From: Akkermansia muciniphila
Lineage (GTDB): Bacteria; Verrucomicrobiota; Verrucomicrobiia; Limisphaerales; UBA9464
Assembly (NCBI GenBank): GCA_945900455.1
Contig: CAMDJH010000012.1
Coordinates: 1-47,261 of the forward strand
Length of the DNA stretch: 47,261 nt
Direction of reading: 5' to 3'
The translations under genes and the position numbers were made by a program. Within the stretch, counting starts at the first letter, position 1. Every line of letters starts with the position of its first letter. The notes beneath the pieces were generated by a model. The model saw nothing but the letters and a program-made list of their open reading frames with translations. It had not been told where the DNA came from and ran no database searches. Positions 38,341 to 47,261 of the stretch are shown piece after piece.

Positions 38341-38487
38341 CCCGAAGTTCTTGGTAGGGGGTGTCGCGCTGCGACAATCCCGCCCGTGCACAGCGGGCGG
38401 ACAGGGCCGCTGCGTGGTTCGTGCCGCGCCTGAACGGCGCGAGGACGCCGCAGCGCGGCGTCCGCTACCTTCTCCAACAACTTCGGG
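38341..38487 (-). repeat. 147-bp multi-hairpin palindromic repeat, copy B
   Basis: The termini CCCGAAGTTCTTGG and CCAACAACTTCGGG are inverted, and the inside folds into several stem-loops (GTCGCGCTGCGAC, CCCGCCCG..CGGGCGG, CGCGCC..GGCGCG, GGACGCCGC..GCGGCGTCC). Same length as copy A (41959-42105) but opposite orientation. It lies between the cupin and fusion genes. Short ORFs reading through it (AAPERREDAAARRPLPS) are spurious. Confidence 0.9.
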
Positions 38488-41958: not shown

Positions 41959-42105
41959 CCCGAAGTTATTGGAGAAGGTAGTGGACGCCGCGCTGCGGCG
42001 TCCCCGCGCCGTTCAGGCGCGGCACGAACCGCGCAGCGGCCCTGCCCGCCCGCTGGACGCGGGCGGGGTTGTCGCAGCGCGACAACCTCCACCAACAACT
42101 TCGAG
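41959..42105 (+). repeat. 147-bp multi-hairpin palindromic repeat, copy A
   Basis: It runs from CCCGAAGTTATTGGAG to CAACAACTTCG and contains perfect hairpins GGACGCCGC..GCGGCGTCC, CGCGCC..GGCGCG and GTTGTCGC..GCGACAAC. It lies 24 bp after the fusion gene stop and may block read-through into the ROK gene. Inverted relative to copy B upstream of the fusion gene. Confidence 0.9.
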
Positions 42106-44700: not shown

Positions 44701-44937
44701 GTGAACTATCGGGAATGCATAACGATTGACCCGCAAGTCCGCAGCGGCAAGCCCTGCATCCGCGGCACCCGCATCACTGTGGCTGACGTATTTGACTATC
44801 TCGCCGGAGGCATGACCATTCCGGAAGTGTTGGATGATTTCCCCGACCTTACCGCCGATGACATTCGTGCCTGCTTTGCGTTCGCTGCGGATCGTGATCG
44901 CCGGCTGAGCGTCGTCCCGCATGAAGTTGCTATTTGA
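44701..44937 (+). CDS. DUF433 antitoxin (VapB45-like)
   Basis: 78 aa from a GTG at 44701. CITIDPQVRSGKPCIRGTRITVADVFDYLAGGMTIPEVLDDFPDLTADDI is a complete DUF433 domain: the short strand with CIRGTRI, then a helix-turn-helix. In DUF433/DUF5615 pairs this member neutralises the nuclease-like partner and represses the operon. It overlaps the next gene by 17 bp. A truncated relative lies at 13568-13690. Confidence 0.88.
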   Translation: MNYRECITIDPQVRSGKPCIRGTRITVADVFDYLAGGMTIPEVLDDFPDLTADDIRACFAFAADRDRRLSVVPHEVAI

Positions 44938-45253
44938 CGAGAACATCTCCCCCAACCTGCCTGGCCTGCTGAAAGCACTCTTTACCGGCAGCGCGCACGT
45001 ACGCGAATGCCGGTTGCTTGGTCTTCCCGATGAAGACATTTGGGAATATGCCCGCGCTAACAATTTCATAATAGTTTCCAAGGATTCCGACTTCCAGCAG
45101 CGTAGCATGCTGTATGGATCGCCTCCTAAGTTCGTCTGGCTCCGAATTGGCAATTGTACCAGCAATCAAATCGTTGCGCTCATTACCACTCACGAGGAGG
45201 ACATTCGTACGTTCAACAACGATGCTCTGGAGGCAGTTCTCGTCCTCTCATAG
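44921..45253 (+). CDS. DUF5615 PIN-like toxin
   Basis: 110 aa. MKLLFDENISPNL carries the first PIN acidic residues (DEN), GLPDEDIWEYARANN the middle pair, and FIIVSKDSDFQQR the conserved KDxDF. This is the Mut7-C/DUF5615 branch of PIN-like nucleases, usually paired with DUF433. Predicted RNase toxin; cellular target unknown. Start overlaps the antitoxin stop (GTGA/ATG arrangement), so translation is coupled. Confidence 0.88.
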   Translation: MKLLFDENISPNLPGLLKALFTGSAHVRECRLLGLPDEDIWEYARANNFIIVSKDSDFQQRSMLYGSPPKFVWLRIGNCTSNQIVALITTHEEDIRTFNNDALEAVLVLS

Positions 45254-45653: not shown

Positions 45654-45687
45654 GCAACGGCGGTCGCTGACCGCCGTTGCCGTTTTT
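45654..45687 (+). terminator. Intrinsic terminator between tatA and tatC
   Basis: GCAACGGCGGTC and its exact inverse GACCGCCGTTGC form a 12-bp stem around a GCT loop, followed by CGTTTTT. It should reduce or end tatA transcription, implying that tatC has its own promoter or relies on read-through. Confidence 0.8.
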
Positions 45688-45710: not shown

Positions 45711-47159
45711 ATGGGCGAAAATCCCAAGGACTTGTCCCCCGGCACTCCGGACCCCGCTCGCAAGCCAGGGCACGAACCAGAGCCCGAGCCGACGCCTGAG
45801 CCAGGGCACGAACCGGTGCATGAGCCAGGGCACGAACCGGCGCCTGAGCCAGGGCACGAACCAGTGCCTGAGCCAGGGCACGAACCGGTGCCTGAGCCAG
45901 GGCACGAACCGGCGCCTGAGCCAGGGCACGAACCGGTGCATGAGCCAGGGCACGAACCGGCGCCTGAGCCAGGGCACGAACCAGTGCATGAGCCAGGGCA
46001 CGAACCGGTGCATGAGCCAGGGCACGAACCGGTGCATGAGCCAGGGCACGAACTGGTGCATGAGCCAGGACACGAACTGGTGCATGAGCCAGGGCACGGA
46101 TCGGCAATGCAGCCGTATTCTTCGCCTCACTCGGAATCTTCGTGGCATCACAAACCGGAATCCGGCCTGGAACCAGTCGCGGAAGAAGAGGGCGGCGGAC
46201 CCGTCAAGACGTTTATCGAACACCTCGAGGATCTTCGCTGGACCTTGATCAAGTGTGCGGTGGCCTACGCGGTCTCGTTCATTCTCTGTCTGAGCGGTGC
46301 GAATTACATCACCGGGTTTCTGAAATGGCCGCTTGAGCAGGCCATGAACAAACGGGTCACATCCAATCATTCGATCACGTACTTGGTAGGCACCAATGTG
46401 ATCGGCCGGGAACCCACCCTCGGTAGTTCATTGCCAGGTGTCCCAACCAATGCGAGCTCTGTCTACCGACTCACGCCGGTGCAGATCGGTACCAATTGGG
46501 TCGCGGCCTTTCAGATCGATACCAACCCCCCCGTTTCCGCCCTCCGTCAATCGACCGTCGAGTTGAAAAACTTCGGCCCCATCAGCGCCTTCAACATCGT
46601 CATGCAAATTGCCCTTTACGGTGGACTCACTGTGGCGGCTCCGTTCCTGCTCCTCTTCATCGGCCAGTTCGTACTGCCAGCCCTGCATGTCCCAGAGAAG
46701 AAATTTCTCTACAAAGTCGCCGGTTGGGCCTCGTTTCTGTTTTTGCTCGGGGTCACTCTTTGCTACCTCATTTTCCTCATTATCTGCCTTAGTACGACGG
46801 TCAGTTTCTCGAATTGGCTGGGCTTCGGCTCCGATCAATGGCAGGCCGAGCAGTACATCTCGTTCGTACTCTGGTTTATGGTGGGAATGGGCGTGGCCTT
46901 CCAGCTACCGCTCGTGCTCCTCACGCTCGTCAAAATCGGCATCCTGGACGCCGCCAAGCTTTCGTCGTTCCGCATGTACTGGGTGGTCATCGGAATGGTC
47001 ATCGCCGCATTCATCACTCCGGATGGTAACCCAATTAACATGGTCATCCTGTTTCTTCCTCTCGAGATCCTCTACGAAATTACGGTAATCGTTGCGTGGT
47101 ATTGGGATCGGAAGGCGAAACGAATGGCCGCGGAAGCCGACTCCGGTGCCGCCGCTTGA
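45711..47159 (+). CDS. tatC: Sec-independent translocase TatC with His/Pro repeat extension
   Basis: 482 aa. Residues about 20-150 are a low-complexity extension dominated by an 8-residue repeat (EPGHEPVH and variants). The TatC core starts near 160 with FIEHLEDLRWTLIKC, carrying the conserved Glu of the signal-recognition site. The first periplasmic loop is longer than in E. coli TatC (about 90 residues). FGPISAFNIVMQIALYGG and FITPDGNPINM are typical later motifs, with six helices in total. It binds the RR signal of Tat substrates. The extension is presumably cytoplasmic. Confidence 0.9.
   Translation: MGENPKDLSPGTPDPARKPGHEPEPEPTPEPGHEPVHEPGHEPAPEPGHEPVPEPGHEPVPEPGHEPAPEPGHEPVHEPGHEPAPEPGHEPVHEPGHEPVHEPGHEPVHEPGHELVHEPGHELVHEPGHGSAMQPYSSPHSESSWHHKPESGLEPVAEEEGGGPVKTFIEHLEDLRWTLIKCAVAYAVSFILCLSGANYITGFLKWPLEQAMNKRVTSNHSITYLVGTNVIGREPTLGSSLPGVPTNASSVYRLTPVQIGTNWVAAFQIDTNPPVSALRQSTVELKNFGPISAFNIVMQIALYGGLTVAAPFLLLFIGQFVLPALHVPEKKFLYKVAGWASFLFLLGVTLCYLIFLIICLSTTVSFSNWLGFGSDQWQAEQYISFVLWFMVGMGVAFQLPLVLLTLVKIGILDAAKLSSFRMYWVVIGMVIAAFITPDGNPINMVILFLPLEILYEITVIVAWYWDRKAKRMAAEADSGAAA
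45798..46085 (+). repeat. 24-bp minisatellite within tatC (12 units)
   Basis: Twelve uninterrupted 24-bp units of the form GAGCCAGGGCACGAACCGG+TGCAT lie head to tail, followed by a partial unit. Variation is nearly confined to a few codon positions (CAT/CCT and CCG/CCA/CTG). Because the unit is a multiple of three, all six frames stay mostly open, which explains the long shadow ORFs here. Confidence 0.95.
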
Positions 47160-47171
47160 AATGCGGTGCAT

Positions 47172-47261
47172 CCTGAAGTTGTTGGAGACGGGTGCGGACG
47201 CCGCGCTGCGGCGTCCCCGCGCCGTTCAGGCGCGGCACGAACCGCGCAGCGGCCCTGTCCG
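47172..47261 (+). repeat. 147-bp multi-hairpin palindromic repeat, copy D, cut by window end
   Basis: CCTGAAGTTGTTGGAG followed by GGACGCCGCGCTGCGGCGTCC and the downstream hairpins matches copies A and B, in the same orientation as A. It is preceded by TGCGGTGCAT, also found directly before copy B. It lies 12 bp after the tatC stop. Confidence 0.9.

Follow-up and report, generated by a model that had tools for sequence, protein, structure and literature searches.

A minisatellite-encoded, histidine-rich tail predicted at the N-terminus of TatC

The 47,261-nucleotide stretch of DNA analysed here (the window) encodes a TatC protein whose predicted N-terminal tail of 160 residues contains 24 histidines and is built in large part from a tandem repeat. 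The best explanation as a whole is that the tail is a translated, disordered, cytosolic His/Glu segment that grew by slippage and has been kept for a role depending on its histidines; the probability of this combined reading is put at about 0.5. The anatomy and origin of the tail, taken jointly, can be stated with high confidence. A histidine-dependent role as such, argued from sequence comparisons, has roughly even odds.

The tatC gene, its array and its neighbors

The protein is TatC by all the sequence features examined, with the NCBIfam naming cut-off as the one exception. Pfam model PF00902 covers residues 170 - 450 (model positions 1 - 208 of 208; 159.7 bits against a cut-off of 25.1; E 1.1e-46). 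The HxEELR motif is present as HLEDLR at the start of the first helix (residues 171 - 176, positions 46221 - 46238) and shows little or no variation across 21 relatives. The gene follows tatA at a distance of 85 bp. TatC was found once in the 6.4-Mb source genome, a draft of about 90% completeness, and a PF02416 search of the same draft returned a single TatA/B-family gene. The system therefore looks like one composed of TatA plus TatC. The helical core, the motif and the adjoining tatA are shared with PF00902 systems that have one TatA and one TatC, and solved relatives such as 4b4a exist. Unlike that family, the window TatC carries a repeat-built His/Glu tail before the core and falls below the TIGR00945 equivalog cut-off (115.2 bits compared to 132.7), the match beginning only at residue 278. 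Because Pfam, the fold and the neighboring tatA are consistent with TatC, this shortfall is probably due to a segment behind the first helix that is enlarged across the order. In TatC of the order this segment has predicted β strands and is probably periplasmic; in the window it spans about 46350 - 46535. A match to Cornifin (PF02389, 45.6 bits, above cut-off) is limited to the Pro/Glu repeat and is not counted as membership, being more probably low-complexity resemblance than homology. The parts of the locus are listed in Table 1.

Table 1. Features of the tatA-tatC locus in window coordinates
Feature	Position	Strand	Basis
tatA, 87 aa	45362..45625	+	Pfam TatA_B_E 5.6e-16
Terminator-like hairpin between tatA and tatC, CGTTTTT after	45654..45680	+	12-pair stem in scan; fold z-score -2.98
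tatC ORF, 482 aa	45711..47159	+	ORF list, Pfam
Conserved start segment MGENPKDLSPGTPDPARK	45711..45764	+	Three-species alignment, protein alignment
Irregular Glu-Pro lead-in PGHEPEPEPTP	45765..45797	+	Sequence
24-bp minisatellite, EPGHEP(V/A)(H/P)	45794..46098	+	TRF, 12.7 copies
Post-array segment MQPYSSPHSESSWHHKPESGLEPVAEEE, kept in sister species; ATG 46107 is a rival start	46107..46190	+	pN/pS 0.28
GGGPVK junction and TatC core	46191..47156	+	Pfam, alignment, AlphaFold2 order from residue 164, pN/pS 0.06

The first-pass annotation had placed a 24-bp array in frame ahead of TatC at 45798 - 46085, and TRF (period 24, 93% matches, score 505), the ORF and the Pfam match bear this out. From 45798, twelve EPGHEPxx octapeptides run to 46085 and are followed by a partial unit, EPGHGSAM; an example of the encoded peptide is EPGHEPVHEPGHEPVH. 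As a description of the N-terminal extension the array was correct and incomplete, because the tail also takes in about 29 residues before it and about 30 after it. The array is far beyond chance. No comparable short-unit array or His-rich stretch was found elsewhere in 447 kb sampled from the source genome, where no other short-unit array exceeds a score of 140 and the one higher score belongs to a 315-bp duplication. The exact array motif, sought in 57 relatives, was absent outside the source genome. A minus-strand ORF of 246 aa over the array is taken as a by-product of a stop-free 3n repeat.

The hairpin between tatA and tatC came from a scan whose sites were no more numerous than in its shuffles. 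A similar hairpin is present in the sister species and in loci L020, L058 and L059, so that conservation extends over the genus and part of genus g3. Possibly the hairpin is a partial terminator that would lower tatC relative to tatA, so that the TatA:TatC ratio would be high. Three copies of a dispersed GC-rich repeat, GCGCCGTTCAGGCGCGGCACGAACCGCGCAGCGGCCCTGTCC, lie in the window with at most one mismatch (38399 - 38440 on the minus strand, 42006 - 42047 and 47219 - 47260 on the plus strand), and the window contig ends in one of them. In the region 44701 - 45253 a 78-aa ORF overlaps a DUF5615/PIN-like ORF (44921 - 45253). The two resemble a small toxin-antitoxin-type pair; NCBIfam models gave no match to the 78-aa ORF.

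Origin and probable translation of the repeat

The genus comparison comprises the window species and two more species, G002 and G001. In the sister species G002 (also CAMAUY010000001.1) the TatC core is 96% identical, the start is the same and the post-array segment is nearly the same, and the array consists of EPGH, ESGH and GSGH units with a 12-bp period. G001 keeps tatA and the tatC start, after which at least 10 perfect copies of GAGCCAAGCCAT (EPSH) run into the contig end. The 24-bp unit of the window is EPGH plus EP(V/A)(H/P), and its halves, GAGCCAGGGCAC (E-P-G-H) and GAACCGGTGCAT, differ in four bases, three of which are synonymous in the TatC frame. The twelve octapeptide units of the first-pass annotation stand, but the ancestral DNA unit is probably the 12-bp GAGCCAGGGCAC, of the E-x-x-H type, with the 24-bp unit as its diverged dimer. 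Histidine is kept in 19 of the 20 units of the sister species and in 20 of 25 in the window, with both CAC and CAT codons in use, whereas the other positions drift.

Compared at the sequence level, the arrays are homogenised within species and diverged between species, a pattern characteristic of slippage or unequal exchange. The expectation that such a minisatellite could change its length without a frameshift is supported, the repeat unit being different in all three species compared. Most probably, the short acidic tail ancestral to the family was expanded in the window genus by a 12-bp E-x-x-H minisatellite, which each species would have re-homogenised into its own version. Bacterial coding minisatellites have a 3n-bp tandem unit, turn over fast with the frame kept, and are usually found in surface proteins. 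The window array shares the 3n unit, the turnover and the kept frame, but it sits in the cytosolic tail of a core component of the export machinery.

Translation of the array is very probable on several grounds. All three species have the start MGENP(K/E)DLSP, and its pattern, M-(G/A)-(E/D)-...-L-x-P, aligns with the MADDP../MADELEV.. starts of short-tailed family members. The first 15 codons have 39 - 41 of 45 identical bases and no indels among the three species. Start conservation by itself decides little, however, because similarity is almost as high in the non-coding DNA immediately upstream. The reading frame stays open across all three of the differing arrays. Relative to the sister species, pN/pS is 0.06 in the TatC core, 0.28 in the 30 codons after the array and, from few sites, 0.43 in the 18 codons before it.

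A start near 46200, which the first-pass annotation had named as the alternative, is unlikely on these grounds. In its most specific form, the array would be untranslated leader DNA and TatC would start at ATG 46107 (MQPYSSPHSE...), with a tail of ordinary length. This ATG is kept in the sister species and leaves about 28 residues ahead of GGGPVK, near the family norm. A clear ribosome-binding site is not seen ahead of 45711, as is often the case for the starts of relatives too. The conserved start, its alignment with the starts of relatives, the open frame in three species and the clearly coding long tails of other families (see below) make the leader improbable.

It is less probable still that the array or its copy number is a short-read assembly error. 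All three genomes are drafts and the G001 contig ends within its array, but two independent assemblies contain different arrays between conserved flanks, the third breaks inside an array of its own, and the longest exact repeat inside the array is only 75 bp in the window and 79 bp in G002. The copy number comes from a draft assembly and could be inaccurate even with a genuine array. Because the exact internal repeats are so short, reads longer than about 100 bp could resolve it.

Tails of TatC proteins across the order

The N-terminal tails of 124 TatC proteins of the order were compared; the set is enriched for long frames, so that its fractions are not prevalences. By label, 82 tails are short; of the long ones, 33 have a His content of at least 5.5% and 9 a lower one. 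Two entries of family f2 (L107 and L112) were set to His-rich by hand, the frame bearing their His-rich tail having no ATG. It is true of most relatives, as the first-pass annotation assumed, that TatC starts near HxEELR: in the short-tailed proteins about 17 - 45 residues precede FLEHLEDLRW.

New here are about nine other families of the order with long, acidic, His-rich and mostly non-repetitive TatC N-tails. His-rich tails are found in f1 (the window genus only), f2, f3, f7, f24, f25, f35, f39, f45 and f51, and DPYHDEYHHDHDDYHHEHHEEHEYQYDHDYHGHEDDHGDYGYGHG is a typical one. In L145 (G229, f51) a separate 12-bp HHDP array of 7.5 copies makes the His-rich tail. Comparison of tails between related genomes (nine His-rich pairs and one long pair without His) gave pN/pS values of 0.21 - 0.45 and an excess of third-position changes; by these measures the compared long tails of other families are coding.

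In a tree of TatC cores, from which f51 was left off, the window genus is positioned inside the short-tailed f1, next to a genus whose tail has 24 aa. A single inherited clade of His-tailed TatCs is rejected by the AU test, both for all of them (p-AU 2.7e-76) and for the window genus plus f24 alone (p-AU 2e-4), these p-values being optimistic as the groups were picked after a first tree had been seen. The simplest reading of the tree is that the His-rich tail was gained repeatedly. Repeated loss from a His-tailed ancestor is possible instead and would require many losses inside f1. Long tails almost without His occur in f11, f12 and some f15, and most family members have about 25 residues; TatC function therefore does not depend on His. 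From other orders of the phylum a few TatC N-tails were looked at; they were short or had an uncertain start, and none was of this type.

Three f2 loci, L107, L112 and L166 (G161, G159 and G160), have a conserved start, MSKEPDRPPVLDQPSPDSQAKA (read in L112), that is out of frame with the His-rich tail and core. Their core frame has no ATG ahead of a Lys-rich repeat, (KAVKKKAAKKKAAPGR)n; the sister locus L049 is in frame. The mismatch may be due to an alternative start codon, a frameshift or an assembly error. The 608-aa TatC of L127 (G217, f49) combines a short N-tail with a very long charged C-terminal tail. A His-rich TatA partner was rejected, as the compared TatA C-tails from the same operons are not His-rich.

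Position and possible roles of the tail

The TatC tail contains the most His-rich 80-residue stretch among 351 ORFs sampled from the source genome, with 17 His compared to 10 in the next. It is a His outlier in the G172 sample as well, and in the G154 sample its His count is equalled by one oddly composed ORF, which may be a frame on the wrong strand. The tail is predicted to be disordered: AlphaFold2, run with 21 sequences, gave residues 1 - 163 no secondary structure and a pLDDT below 50 for almost all of them, and the helical TatC core starts at residue 164. By composition and disorder prediction, it is a dense His run in a flexible segment, as expected of His-rich metal-binding segments. 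Such segments of metal-handling proteins, among them HypB, SlyD and the ZIP/ZnT loops, are flexible and combine dense His with acidic residues. The TatC tail is similar in composition and, by analogy rather than membership, may work like them, but it is part of a protein-export receptor and its metal binding is putative.

The N-terminus of TatC is cytosolic and lies next to the face where signal peptides and TatB/TatA dock. From this topology, the tail would hang in the cytosol at the mouth of the Tat receptor. According to work cited in PMC3712464, Tat precursors and TatB can be cross-linked from positions in the cytoplasmic N-terminus of E. coli TatC. Lineage-specific additions are also present in TatC of N. 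salsuginis and M. xanthus, as inserts that are disordered or folded, one being disordered (PMC13323110); those inserts are periplasmic, whereas the window tail is N-terminal and cytosolic. No description of His-rich or repeat-built TatC tails was found in the literature searched, which left most subscription journals outside its scope.

The histidine-dependent role proposed here is reversible binding of transition metals (Ni, Zn, Cu) or of protons by the dense His and Glu. Metal would be held near folded metalloprotein cargo or the charge of the tail would be switched, and either way cargo capture would be modulated. Metal binding by the tail is a tentative candidate. A histidine-dependent role is favored over a mere spacer because other families of the order have His-rich TatC tails as well. 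It is also argued from the retention of His in units whose other positions drift, repeat copies not being independent evidence of selection, and from the restriction of the His-rich tail to TatC and not TatA.

Neutral growth is possible, if rather doubtful: slippage would lengthen a permissive disordered tail, selection would only keep the frame and avoid harm, and His would be a by-product of the founding 12-bp unit. Complete turnover of the array between species whose cores are 96% identical agrees with this, as do the His-free long tails and the fact that most of the family dispenses with a long tail. A purely neutral origin fits poorly with the convergence on His, however: such tails are present in several lineages that are separate from one another, the His contexts differ and most tails lack tandem repeats, and the 447 kb sampled from the source genome contain nothing comparable.

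The tail might instead be an electrostatic antenna or tether, a negatively charged, Pro-rich extension attracting Arg/Lys-rich signal peptides or TatA, with His incidental or tuning the charge. Short and long tails of the order are acidic (D+E mostly 0.15 - 0.4 compared to K+R mostly 0.02 - 0.1), the computed charge of the window tail is about -31 at pH 7 and -20 at pH 6, and in E. coli the TatC N-terminus can be cross-linked to precursors. Asp/Glu alone would serve this purpose, and the His content of about 14% and its recurrence are left unexplained; this explanation is considered somewhat unlikely.

Few export components are more conserved than TatC, whose N-terminus lies at the docking site of partner subunits and of cargo, often a metalloprotein. 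More speculatively, the Tat receptor of one order, probably in Verrucomicrobiota, may have repeatedly gained a His-rich cytosolic tail that couples export to cytosolic metal or proton levels, as a metal-responsive or metal-loading gate; in the window genus a fast-evolving minisatellite would encode it. The fast turnover of the repeats provides a natural series of tails (EPSH, ESGH, EPGHEPVH, HHDP, DPYHDEYHH) with which His content, charge and length could be separated. Repeated and apparently independent gains of a His tail at TatC would indicate a level of regulation that has not been described.
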